DNA of 54,064 bases from a bacterium (GTDB lineage Bacteria; Chloroflexota; Dormibacteria; Aeolococcales; Bog-877). The first letter of the stretch is position 1. The number at the start of each line of letters is the position of its first letter. Both the position numbers and the translations under genes were made by a program. Below the pieces are notes generated by a model. The model made no database searches. It saw only the letters and a list, made by a program, of their open reading frames with translations, and was not told where the DNA came from. This document shows positions 8,505 to 11,925 of this stretch, piece by piece. Location of the stretch: positions 1 to 54,064 of the forward strand of contig JAJYXT010000021.1 of the NCBI GenBank assembly GCA_021801645.1, given 5' to 3'.

Positions 8505-9258
8505 GGGCGCGGCGGTCTGCCCCATCGGGCAAGTACGGCACGCCGGCCCAGGTGGGCTCTGGTGGCTGGAGCTCCGGGCTTCGGTGAGGCGCCGGCGCGC
8601 CCTGGTCATCAAGCTGGTCTTCCCCCTGGTCCTGGCGGTACCCCTGGCCCTGACCGGGGCACCCCAGTTTTTCGCCGCCATGCTGCTCACCGTGCTCATC
8701 GCCATGGTGGGGACGGTGGGCACCGGGGTCAGCCTGACCAGGGCCAGAGGGGCGGGCTGGCTGGACCGGCTGGCCGTCCTGCCGCTGGGCGGGTGGCGGG
8801 TCGGACTGGAGCTCTTCCTGGCCGGGTGGGTGGTGGACTGCCTGCAGGCCACCCTCCTGATCCTGGTGCTGGAGGCCGCGCAGCGGCCGGACCCGCTCAC
8901 CCTTCTGAGCACCTGGCTGCTAAGCCTGGCCACCCTGGCCTTCTCCGGAGCGCTGGGCCTGGCGGTGGCCACCCTCACCGACAACCCCGGGGAGGCGATG
9001 CTGGTCCTGGCTGTGGTGCTGGCGCCGATGCTGTTCCTCTCCGGGCTCTTCACAGGCGTTCCGGCGTCGGGGCCGCGCTACTGGGTGGCCCAGCTGCTCC
9101 CCTTCAGCTACCTGCAGAACGCCTTCCAGCTGGTGCTCCACGGCAATCCGCCGTACGGCAGTGACCCCCAGTTCCTGCTGGCCGCGGTGGTCTTCCTCCT
9201 GGTGGGCGCGGGCGCGGCGGCGCTCCTGGGAGGGCCCCTGCTGGCCAGAGGCTCATGA
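8497..9258 (+). CDS. ABC-2 type transporter permease
   Basis: A 253-residue polytopic protein with six hydrophobic segments (beginning at ALVIKLVFPLVLAVPLALTG and ending at FLLAAVVFLLVGAGAAALL). The pattern FLSGLFTGVPASGPRYWVAQLLPFSYLQNA is typical of ABC-2 exporters. The ATG at 8497 overlaps the ATPase gene by eight bases, implying translational coupling. Together with 7596-8504 it forms a second exporter in the window, unrelated in detail to the DrrAB pair at 1030-2785. The exported compound is unknown. Confidence 0.83.
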   Translation: MAEGAAVCPIGQVRHAGPGGLWWLELRASVRRRRALVIKLVFPLVLAVPLALTGAPQFFAAMLLTVLIAMVGTVGTGVSLTRARGAGWLDRLAVLPLGGWRVGLELFLAGWVVDCLQATLLILVLEAAQRPDPLTLLSTWLLSLATLAFSGALGLAVATLTDNPGEAMLVLAVVLAPMLFLSGLFTGVPASGPRYWVAQLLPFSYLQNAFQLVLHGNPPYGSDPQFLLAAVVFLLVGAGAAALLGGPLLARGS

Positions 9259-9465
9259 GCACCTTCGGGCTGCCATCCGGACGATGCCGAGCCGGGCCAG
9301 GAGGGCAGTGACGTCCCCCGGCTCCCCCGCCAGCTCCTAGCGCTGCCGGTGCCGAATGCCGCCAAACGCCTCCCACCCGCTCTCCGGCGGCCAATGTTCG
9401 GAGCCACTCACTGCCCAGGGAGCGGTCGCGCCTGGGTGTGCTTCTCACCTAGGCAACCTGCGGGC

Positions 9466-9495
9466 TTGACAGGTAAGACATTACTTACCTATAGT
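9466..9495 (+). promoter_or_regulatory. Sigma-A type promoter with embedded dyad operator
   Basis: TTGACA (9466-9471, perfect -35) and TATAGT (9490-9495) are separated by 18 bases, and ATG 9502 follows six bases after the -10 box, so the message is probably leaderless. Between the boxes lies a perfect inverted repeat, AGGTAAG (9471-9477) and CTTACCT (9484-9490), six bases apart. A protein bound there would block RNA polymerase. The likely binder is the ArsR-family regulator encoded second in the operon. Confidence 0.8.
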
Positions 9496-9501
9496 CGGGC
9501 T

Positions 9502-9882
9502 ATGAACCTCTCCCACATCCAGTTGATCTCACTTCCGGTCAGTGACCAGGACCGAGCCCGGGACTTCTATGTGAACGTGCTGGGCTTCGACCTGGTCCGG
9601 GACAACCCAATGGGGCCTGACAGCCGATGGGTGCAGGTCGCCCCGAAGGGCGCAGAGACGGCGATCACGTTGGTCACCTGGTTCCCCACCATGCCGCCCG
9701 GGTCCACGAAGGGGATAGTCCTGGAGTCCACCGACCTCGACGCCGACGTGGCCGAGCTCATGGCCAAGGGCGTGGCCATCGAGGGCGGTATCCAAGAGCA
9801 ACCGTGGGGGAGGTTCGTCACCTTCGACGACCCCGACGGCAACGGGATCGTGCTCCAAGAATCGGCCAGCGGTGCCCCGTGA
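9502..9882 (+). CDS. VOC family (glyoxalase/bleomycin-resistance fold) protein
   Basis: This 126-residue protein begins MNLSHIQLISLPVSDQDRARDFYVNVLGF and ends with DPDGNGIVLQE, the two hallmark halves of the vicinal-oxygen-chelate fold. Metal-ligand candidates are His5 and the late Glu of VLQE. The longer in-frame start at 9349 is rejected because the similarity and a good promoter both place the start at ATG 9502. It is the first gene of an operon with an ArsR regulator (overlap or 1-base gap) and an SRPBCC protein. Related operons are thought to handle small reactive or xenobiotic molecules; the substrate here cannot be inferred. Confidence 0.85.
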   Translation: MNLSHIQLISLPVSDQDRARDFYVNVLGFDLVRDNPMGPDSRWVQVAPKGAETAITLVTWFPTMPPGSTKGIVLESTDLDADVAELMAKGVAIEGGIQEQPWGRFVTFDDPDGNGIVLQESASGAP

Positions 9883-10195
9883 AATGCCGGGCGGCGACGT
9901 CTTCTTGGCCATCGCCAGCCCGGTCCGGCGAGCCCTGCTCGACACGCTGAGACAAGGGCCGGCGCCGGTTCGCGACCTGGCCGCCGACTTCTCGATCAGC
10001 CGTCCCGCCGTGTCCCAGCATCTTCGTGTCTTGAGACTGGCCGATCTGGTCAGCGAGAGCCAGGTCGGGCGGGAGCACCAATACCGGCTGAACCCCGAAC
10101 CGCTCCAGGACGTTCGCGCATGGGTGACCAGCTACGAGCGGTTCTGGAAGGAACGGCTGATCGGGTTGCGCGACCTGCTGGACAGCGGGAGGTGA
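9872..10195 (+). CDS. ArsR-family winged-helix regulator
   Basis: A 107-residue winged-helix protein with FLAIASPVRRALLDTLRQGP and the recognition region FSISRPAVSQHLRVLRLADLV, typical of the SdpR-like ArsR branch. It lacks the cysteine metal-binding motif of ArsR/SmtB sensors and so probably does not sense arsenic. The start is GTG 9872, overlapping the end of the VOC gene, or ATG 9884, one base after its stop. The stop overlaps the GTG of the SRPBCC gene. Autoregulation through the dyad in the operon promoter (9471-9490) is the natural expectation. Confidence 0.85.
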   Translation: MPREMPGGDVFLAIASPVRRALLDTLRQGPAPVRDLAADFSISRPAVSQHLRVLRLADLVSESQVGREHQYRLNPEPLQDVRAWVTSYERFWKERLIGLRDLLDSGR

Positions 10196-10620
10196 CCTTC
10201 GCCTCAATCCGCACCGACGCTTTCCTCCCCCACCCGCCGGAGAAGGTGTGGCGGGCGCTGACCGACCGCGAATTGCTGGGCGCGTGGCTGATGCCCAACG
10301 ACTTCCAGGCGCGGGTGGGACATCGTTTCACCTTCCACACCGACGCCGTACCGGCTCAGGGATTCGACGGCCAGGTGCACTGCGAGGTGCTCATCCTGGA
10401 ACCGCCGCAGCGCCTGCGGATCAGTTGGCGAGCCGGAAAGATCGACACCACGGTCACCTGGCAGCTGGTACCCGAGGGCAGCGGTACGCGCCTTTTCCTG
10501 ACCCACGACGGCTTCGATCCCAGCGACCCCGAGCAGGAGGCGACGCGCCGGCTGCTGGGCGGCGGCTGGCAGGGTCACCTCGCCCGCCGGCTGGAGCAGA
10601 CTCTCGTGGGCCTCGGCTGA
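10192..10620 (+). CDS. SRPBCC (AHSA1-like) ligand-binding domain protein
   Basis: The 142-residue protein has the START/SRPBCC pattern of the AHSA1 group: HPPEKVWRALTDRELLGAWLMP near the N-terminus and GGGWQGHLARRLEQTL at the C-terminal helix. GTG 10192 overlaps the ArsR stop (GTGA), so it is translationally coupled. ArsR-SRPBCC neighbours are common in actinobacteria, and the SRPBCC protein is presumed to bind or transform the small hydrophobic compound sensed by the regulator. The function of this one is unknown. Confidence 0.82.
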   Translation: MTFASIRTDAFLPHPPEKVWRALTDRELLGAWLMPNDFQARVGHRFTFHTDAVPAQGFDGQVHCEVLILEPPQRLRISWRAGKIDTTVTWQLVPEGSGTRLFLTHDGFDPSDPEQEATRRLLGGGWQGHLARRLEQTLVGLG

Positions 10621-10929
10621 ATCATCAGGTGAAGGCGGGCGCCTCTCGCCCCGGTGGCGGGGCTAGCCGGCGCCCTTTCCTTGGTTCACCCGGTGCCCTC
10701 GGAGTCTGAGGGACGCGGATGCTCGTGAACAGAATGGAAGCATCCCAGCCCGAGCGCCGACGAACGACCATAATTGCCAGCGCCGTGGGACGGATGCGAG
10801 CGTCAAGGTGGCCGAGTGAACATCCCTGGCTGGATCGCCCACTCCCGAGCGGGCCGGCCCCGCCGATCGCCGATCTCTTTTTTGCCCTCTCTCAGACTGC
10901 TACTTGGAGTCGGTGGGAGGACACGCCAA
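10621..10929. other. Intergenic region before the hydrolase gene
   Basis: Besides the terminator at its left end, I see no convincing gene here. A CATAAT (10769-10774) resembles a -10 box but has no -35 partner, and a run of six T at 10878-10883 follows a weak GATC-repeat hairpin. In-frame upstream extensions of the hydrolase through this region have no protein-like character. Confidence 0.5.
10637..10682 (+). terminator. Rho-independent terminator of the VOC-ArsR-SRPBCC operon
   Basis: GGGCGCC (10637-10643) pairs with GGCGCCC (10669-10675). An inner stem GCCCC (10648-10652)/GGGGC (10659-10663) lies inside, and TTTCCTT follows. It lies 17 bases after the SRPBCC stop codon. Confidence 0.6.
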
Positions 10930-11925
10930 ATGGCTGAGAGCGCACCCGGCGGACACGGCTTTGAAGTCAGCTGGGAGCTCGGAGCCACCACCGTCCACGG
11001 CACCGTGGAGCTCCCCCAGGGGTCCGGGCCGTTCCCGGCCGTCGTGCTGGTGGCCGGAAGCGGCCCGACGGACCGCGACTGGAACTCCCCCCTCCTGCCC
11101 GGGTCGAACGGCAGTGGAGCCCTGCTTGCCCGGGCGCTGACCGGAGCCGGCTACGCCACCCTGCGCTACGACAAACGAGCATCAGGGCCTCACGTCCGGG
11201 AGACCCTCCCTCACCTGATCGGATCGGTGACCATGCAGAGCCACGTGGACGAGCTGGCCGGTGCGGTGAGGTCGCTCGCGTCCCAGCCCGCCGTGCGCCG
11301 GGAGCGGGTGTTCGGCCTCGGCCACAGCGAGGGCACGCTCCACGTCCTCAACTACCAGATGGGGGCGCCGGAGATCCCCTTCGCCGGCCTGGTGCTGGCC
11401 GGCCCGCCGGGGCGGCCGGTGGGTGTGGTGGCGCGCTCCCAGCTGGCCGCCCAGGCCGCCTCCGTCCCAGACGGCTCCCACCTCCTCGCCCTGTATGACG
11501 CCGCGGTGGCCCGCTTCCTGGCCGGCGAACCGGCCGCCCCCGATCCCGCTCTTCCGGAGAGCGTGCGTGCCCTGATCGCCTCGCTGGAGAATCCCGTCAA
11601 CCTGCCGTTCTCCCGGGAGCTTTGGACCGCGGACGCGGCTCCCCTCCTGGCAACGGTGGAAGTCCCGGTGCTTGTCCTCATCGGCCAGAAGGACATTCAG
11701 GTGGACTGGCGGGCCGATGGGGACCCGCTCCAGAGGGCCGCCGCCGGTCGTGGGGCGGTCGACTTCGCCTTCCCCGAGGCGGCCAATCACCTCCTCAAGC
11801 AGGAGACGCGACCGCGGGAGGAGCTGGCTGCGCCGGAGGTAGCGGCGGCCTACAACTCCGAGGATGCGCGGCTTGACCCAGAGACCGTGGACACCATCCT
11901 GGGTTGGCTCGCAGCCCACATCTAG
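10930..11925 (+). CDS. Alpha/beta hydrolase
   Basis: The 331-residue protein is an alpha/beta hydrolase of the dienelactone-hydrolase/YqkD-like type. The oxyanion-region strand is VVLVAGSGPTDRDWN, the nucleophile elbow is GHSEG, the acid is in the VPVLVLIGQKDIQVDW segment, and the catalytic histidine is probably in EAANHLLK. It has no signal peptide. ATG 10930 is preceded by GGGAGGA at a spacing of about eight bases, which decides the start over longer in-frame options. It stands alone and converges on the transketolase gene. Substrate (an ester or peptide) unknown. Confidence 0.82.
   Translation: MAESAPGGHGFEVSWELGATTVHGTVELPQGSGPFPAVVLVAGSGPTDRDWNSPLLPGSNGSGALLARALTGAGYATLRYDKRASGPHVRETLPHLIGSVTMQSHVDELAGAVRSLASQPAVRRERVFGLGHSEGTLHVLNYQMGAPEIPFAGLVLAGPPGRPVGVVARSQLAAQAASVPDGSHLLALYDAAVARFLAGEPAAPDPALPESVRALIASLENPVNLPFSRELWTADAAPLLATVEVPVLVLIGQKDIQVDWRADGDPLQRAAAGRGAVDFAFPEAANHLLKQETRPREELAAPEVAAAYNSEDARLDPETVDTILGWLAAHI

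Follow-up and report, generated by a model that had tools for sequence, protein, structure and literature searches.

The segment at 9466-9495 of the window (the whole stretch of DNA analysed here, 54,064 nucleotides long) is probably the promoter-operator of an autorepressed VOC-ArsR-SRPBCC operon that would work in the manner of Mycobacterium tuberculosis Rv2034, be induced by a small molecule, and express ligand-binding proteins. Binding of the dyad in this segment by the operon's own ArsR-family protein, with autorepression, appears very likely from comparative evidence. With a defined operator, what was a hypothetical three-gene operon becomes a switch that can be tested. The operator, which was first footprinted with a mycobacterial regulator, is present in other phyla as well, and its half-site tracks the ArsR recognition helix. 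The features are as follows.

9466..9471, + strand: -35 hexamer TTGACA, read from the sequence; sigma-70-type match, identical in the ortholog in genome G004
9471..9490, + strand: candidate operator dyad AGGTAAG-N6-CTTACCT, sequence AGGTAAGACATTACTTACCT
9473-9488, + strand: conserved operator core GTAAG-N6-CTTAC, exact; common to G004 and other families
9490..9495, + strand: -10 hexamer TATAGT, read from the sequence; sigma-70-type match, kept in G004
9502..9882, + strand: TnmS3-like VOC gene, P0001, 126 aa, ATG start; PF00903, 4.3e-19
9884..10195, + strand: ArsR-family regulator P0002, 103 aa; PF01022, 2.8e-12; recognition helix SRPAVSQHLRVL
10192..10620, + strand: SRPBCC/AHSA1 gene, P0003, 142 aa, GTG start; PF08327, 8.6e-23

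A dyad fills the promoter spacer

The -35 and -10 hexamers are separated by 18 bp, and the dyad fills this spacer; its first A also ends the -35 hexamer, and its last T also begins the -10 hexamer. No other sigma-70-type promoter match occurs in 9200-11000 (shuffle mean 0.1). The ATG of the VOC gene, at 9502, lies 6 nt past the end of the -10 hexamer, and the VOC message is therefore probably leaderless, its start site being placed by this spacing. The three genes follow each other on the same strand nearly without gaps: the GTG start of the SRPBCC gene overlaps the ArsR stop, and an in-frame GTG at 9872 is an alternative ArsR start. Upstream, a membrane-protein frame, which we read as ABC-2 type, ends at 9258; downstream, on the same strand, is an alpha/beta-hydrolase-like frame. 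Scans found no Rfam match in 9000-11000, and no terminator. An initial annotation, made from the letters and open reading frames, had placed the dyad exactly between TTGACA and TATAGT, and the sequence confirms the coordinates 9466-9495; its VOC, ArsR and SRPBCC gene calls agree with the Pfam matches, and its description of an ArsR protein without metal-binding cysteines holds in the strongest form, P0002 having no cysteine at all.

In a window of about 71% GC, a 7-bp dyad is by itself unremarkable; there are 134 perfect 7-bp dyads with spacers of 3-12 bases, against a mean of 98 under a Markov-1 model. It is the placement that stands out. The hexamers flanking this dyad score 11/12, those of the runner-up dyad in the window 7/12, and none of 60 simulated windows held a dyad between hexamers scoring at least 10/12. 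Searched with up to three mismatches, the window yields this site alone (shuffle mean 0.40). The full dyad is exact in a single copy in the whole 2.13-Mb assembly of 100 contigs, where 14 sites match with up to three mismatches against 21 for a reversed-pattern control. The core is likewise exact at this site alone, with 3 sites at up to one mismatch against 11 for the control. We dropped a wider regulon and claim no second target in this genome, because it holds one perfect core site and the near matches fall below control counts.

The operator core is that of Rv2034

In the available part of the source, M. tuberculosis Rv2034 is shown by reporter and footprint to be an ArsR autorepressor; its footprinted palindrome, CCGTAAGT-N4-ACTTACGG, corresponds to GTAAG-N6-CTTAC, Rv2034, Rv2035 (polyketide_cyc2 domain) and Rv2036 are described as one operon, and the single cysteine of Rv2034 is required for binding and dimerisation (PMC3338718). 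The window has the same core with identical spacing, and likewise an SRPBCC-type gene after the ArsR gene. Three features of an Rv2034-like module are present, namely an ArsR winged helix, the core in the regulator's own promoter, and an SRPBCC gene directly downstream. Since Rv2034 is an autorepressor footprinted on this core, neither the core nor the regulatory principle is new. What differs from Rv2034 is the placement of the site in the -35/-10 spacer, the probably leaderless VOC gene at the head of the operon with its TnmS3-like cargo, and the missing cysteine; a counterpart of Rv2036 is also missing from the operon. Because P0002 lacks the cysteine that Rv2034 requires, we rejected strict orthology and file P0002 as working like Rv2034. 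Among the open-access matches listed for an ArsR protein with a GTAAG/CTTAC operator, Rv2034 alone was relevant, and no description of a VOC-ArsR-SRPBCC operon was found in the open-access literature, as judged by title and start of abstract.

The head gene encodes a relative of TnmS3

By sequence, the nearest solved relatives of P0001 are 5ump/5umx/5umy and 5w27/6bbx (E about 1e-43). P0001 is identical to the TnmS3 chain at 68 of 123 aligned positions (55%) over its whole length; it shares the segment WFPTMPPGS with TnmS3 of Streptomyces sp. CB03234, and both lack Glu after DPDGN. Entry titles describe TnmS3 with tiancimycin B (5w27) and with riboflavin (5umx). TnmS1-3 are tiancimycin-sequestering proteins with homologs in other bacteria, according to the accessible parts of two reviews and a research paper (PMC9854587, PMC6804068, PMC11069151). 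Predicting the structure of the VOC protein by itself gave a poor model (mean pLDDT 58.8), and structure-aligner output served for entry titles, not as fold evidence.

The VOC protein might instead be a metal-dependent enzyme that breaks down the inducer, in the way of glyoxalases, dioxygenases or thiol transferases; the Pfam family name (glyoxalase/bleomycin resistance/dioxygenase) and the presence of His5 in the window protein would allow this. We looked at the usual VOC metal-ligand positions in ten aligned sequences. Four of the ten have His at position 5 and the others R, C, D, G or S there, and the residue after DPDGN, usually Glu, is V or I in all ten; on this alignment the P0001 family does not conserve the metal-ligand positions. 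P0001 thus resembles the TnmS3 type both in full-length similarity and in the absence of a conserved VOC metal site. With TnmS3 crystallised with tiancimycin B and riboflavin and described as a sequestration protein, we consider the enzymatic alternative rather unlikely, and the comparison favours a VOC protein that is a binder. The initial annotation had read the three genes as a module with a "VOC enzyme" among its effectors. The regulatory half of that reading stands, on dyad conservation, helix type and the Rv2034 core; the enzyme label is probably wrong, because the closest solved relative is TnmS3 and the family's metal-ligand positions are not conserved.

The third protein, P0003, has its best relatives among uncharacterised AHSA1 proteins (3q63, E 5.4e-19). 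It has the SRPBCC fold family in common with self-sacrifice proteins of the CalU16/TnmB type. Its match to CalU16 is partial (E 6.2e-7, residues 14-106) and weaker than those to 3q63, 2kte and others, and the likeness, by alignment, appears to be at superfamily level. In the accessible part of the source, TnmB and TnmS proteins co-occur in the tiancimycin cluster (PMC11069151). The TnmS genes, unlike the window VOC gene, lie in an enediyne gene cluster, and the five regulators listed for it in the available text are an HxlR, two AraC and two AarF-type kinases, with no ArsR among them (PMC9464397).

The operator is kept in related operons

In a search of eight genomes of the genus, our own included, with the SRPBCC protein, a close ortholog was found in our own and in G004 alone. 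G004 has the whole operon (ArsR 91%, VOC 89%, SRPBCC 90% identical) behind the promoter TTGACA-gGTAAG-gtattg-CTTACg-TATAGT. The central six bases differ from those of the window at three positions and the outer bases at one, and the 5-bp half-sites and both hexamers are intact. The initial annotation had staked its reading beforehand on the dyad recurring upstream of orthologous operons, and it is kept there in G004 and in other families and phyla.

More distant ArsR loci were taken from 110 genomes of the class and 400 of the phylum (E up to 1e-21). Loci L050, L051, L052, L055, L056, L057, L058 and L059 have a window-type helix and a window-type site, with two tandem sites in L051 and L052, the second at the usual -10 place. 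A sister group from one large-genome family (L060-L063, L065, L069, L071) carries GTAGG-N6-CCTAC between its -35 and -10, and the site usually recurs 3' of the -10. Both hexamers score at least 5/6 in exactly the window geometry at 12 of the 16 loci with a perfect GTAAG or GTAGG dyad; L051 and L052 have no -10, and L050 and L059 have neither hexamer, their dyad lying outside a good -35/-10 pair. The SRPBCC protein used as anchor (E up to 1e-28) leads to 13 loci in 12 of the 400 genomes, ten of them with a perfect GTAAG or GTAGG dyad. L135, the same operon as L069, has a one-mismatch dyad; L141 and L142 have no such dyad and other helices.

We also searched the 400 phylum genomes with the composite TTGACANGTARGN6CYTACNTATANT. 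At up to two mismatches, 19 genomes yield 22 sites in all; a reversed control gives 2. An ArsR gene or, in one case, a P0001-related VOC gene follows 17 of them: 15 precede an ArsR gene by tblastn, L075 an ArsR-like frame missed by tblastn, counted by eye from the ORF list and absent from the tree described below, and L092 a VOC gene 52% identical to P0001. The remaining five (L079, L080, L089, L090, L093) precede neither, and four of these have two mismatches each. The fifth, L080:1501-1530 in G342, is an exact composite site that has no match to ArsR, VOC or SRPBCC next to it; the following same-strand frame encodes an 81-aa protein, and G342 also carries an ArsR-SRPBCC operon with the same operator.

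The search was extended to plasmids, where the first five of 114 matching records were examined; an SRPBCC gene lies downstream in all five. Nonomuraea gerenzanensis (NZ_LT559118.1, L130) matches the window in its three genes and their order (VOC, ArsR and SRPBCC 48, 54 and 63% identical). Its promoter, TTGTCA-GTAGG-N6-CCTAC-TATAGT, places the dyad in the same 18-bp spacer, with the ATG 7 nt past the -10. It differs from the window in having GTAGG for GTAAG, an SEHLK helix for SQHLR, and an ArsR on a different branch.

A survey anchored on the VOC family, which has matches in 49 of the 400 phylum genomes (E up to 1e-20), covered 30 of 55 matching loci, window and G004 included. The operator occurs at one of the 28 others (L102, in G416); L123, among these 28, has no upstream sequence. 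We accordingly rejected the idea of the VOC gene as a conserved partner everywhere. In G416 the VOC gene has its own promoter, TTGACA-GTAGG-N6-CCTAC-TATAAT, plus a second dyad, and the separate ArsR-SRPBCC operon of that genome has the same half-site. Because the window operon, the Nonomuraea operon and the in-trans promoter of G416 all carry the link, the VOC family is, by its promoters, tied to such a regulator in at least three arrangements.

Half-site type goes with helix type

Helix and operator were compared at 53 ArsR loci selected by protein similarity alone (L011-L041, L050-L071). Allowing one mismatch, GTAAG-N6-CTTAC is found at 13 of 13 loci with an RPA[VI]SQHL helix (9 perfect, 4 with one mismatch) and GTAGG-N6-CCTAC at 7 of 7 with RP[ST]ISEHLK (6 perfect); the remaining 33 loci have neither type of site. 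Three of the SQHL loci (L030, L034, L039) have a one-mismatch match that overlaps the start codon and lends no support to the spacer placement. Among the plasmid loci, Nonomuraea, with SEHLK, has the GTAGG half-site. Two Streptomyces and a Tsukamurella (SEHLT, SEHLS, AEHLK; L127, L128, L131) have GTCGG-N6-CCGAC one base past TTGACA, and Metabacillus (RTAVSKHL), among the same five records, has neither a GTAGG nor a GTCGG site.

In a tree of 61 ArsR proteins the half-site types cluster (13 changes against a shuffled mean of 33.7), and the loci are therefore not independent, the association being partly phylogenetic. The Nonomuraea ArsR falls in the GTAGG/GTCGG clade (99/95), not with the window ArsR; deep forks of the tree are not resolved. 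The recognition helix of Rv2034, which we take to be SRPAVSQHLK, is not found in PMC4048274.

The dyad could in principle be the operator of a repressor encoded elsewhere, with the operon ArsR a passenger. The ArsR family is large, with eight matches to P0002 in this genome, and other winged-helix families also use short dyads. Against this, half-site and neighbouring ArsR helix change together in different families and phyla, the genome has no second exact site, and Rv2034, itself an ArsR protein, binds this core according to the available part of PMC3338718. We judge a foreign repressor quite improbable.

The regulator and its inducer

P0002 scores 46.8 bits against PF01022 (cut-off 22). Membership in the SdpR family was rejected, the score against autorepressor model NF033789 being 65.1 bits with a curated cut-off of 100. 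A metal or metalloid sensor heading a metal-stress operon might be suggested by the NCBIfam subfamily model "metalloregulator ArsR/SmtB", which P0002 matches above cut-off (76.3 vs 55 bits). Yet the lack of any cysteine in P0002 led us to reject a cysteine-based metal site of the ArsR, CadC or CmtR type, and none of the three genes encodes a metal transporter or reductase. Among the listed PDB matches to P0002, the closest metal sensor is NmtR, which aligns weakly and over residues 7-70 alone. The alpha-5 Asp/His site of the SmtB type is presumably absent too, judged by eye from its motif. A metal sensor is highly improbable on these grounds. A non-metal inducer fits the absence of cysteines, and we think it reasonably likely that the inducer is a small molecule rather than a metal.

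Proposed mechanism

The abundance of perfect 7-bp dyads in this GC-rich window would allow a good promoter that merely happens to contain one, yet the simulations gave no such placement and the half-sites are kept while the central bases vary, and this conservation makes a fortuitous arrangement very unlikely, to the point that we give it next to no weight.

On the strong comparative evidence above, an ArsR dimer would bind GTAAG-N6-CTTAC; the centres of its half-sites lie 11 bp from each other, close to one turn of the helix. With the entire stretch between -35 and -10 taken up by the site, a bound dimer should keep RNA polymerase off the promoter and silence all three genes, the repressor's own included. 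A non-metal small molecule, probably hydrophobic or aromatic, would then release the repressor. Judging from the spacing, transcription would start at or next to the VOC ATG and yield a VOC message without a leader, to which the ArsR and SRPBCC genes are closely coupled. By homology, the TnmS3-like VOC protein would bind and sequester the molecule, and the SRPBCC protein would bind or modify it.

A polycyclic aromatic or anthraquinone-like ligand is a tentative suggestion that we hold with some doubt. Equally speculative is a portable drug-inducible sequestration cassette, carried by bacteria that are not necessarily drug makers, in which a polycyclic aromatic such as an anthraquinone-type antibiotic releases the VOC and SRPBCC binders. 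The VOC gene might on this proposal have joined this type of regulator more than once: at the head with an SQHL ArsR (window), at the head with an SEHLK ArsR (Nonomuraea), and in trans behind a GTAGG promoter (G416). Should the VOC protein share the drug binding of TnmS3, the operon would offer one answer to how TnmS-like resistance genes are switched on outside drug-producing clusters, and its ArsR could serve directly as a biosensor for compounds of this kind.

Operators of other ArsR groups

Nearer-relative ArsR matches in our first ArsR survey belonged mostly to other subfamilies with other dyads. ATGCC-N6-GGCAT lies upstream of QP[LVI]VSKHL ArsR loci (L013, L019, L027, L040), and GACAC-N6-GTGTC upstream of an RTAVAKHL ArsR (L068); both begin one base after a TTGACA-like hexamer. 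The comparison suggests that a 5-N6-5 operator layout is general, with half-sites that vary along with the recognition helix, and such tracking would amount to a simple specificity code. A helix-operator code for this ArsR group was not found in the open-access literature by title and start of abstract.

Locus L041, on a Phycisphaerales contig, combines the helix SRPAISRHLRAL with GTAAC-N6-GTTAC, which differs from the window operator by one base per half-site. The ArsR proteins of L030, L034 and L039, with helix VSRPAVSQHL, form a separate clade. We take these loci to be the nearest to the Rv2034 type; they lie outside the window group, at a weak fork. L034 and L039 have a reversed CTTAC-N-GTAAG beside the start codon, an arrangement that would demand another mode of reading from a dimer. 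In L075, L086 and L087, GCAAG-N6-CTTGC stands in the same spacer before an ArsR gene and then a different VOC gene; L086 and L087 have an SRPBCC match after the VOC gene, and a second dyad just downstream.
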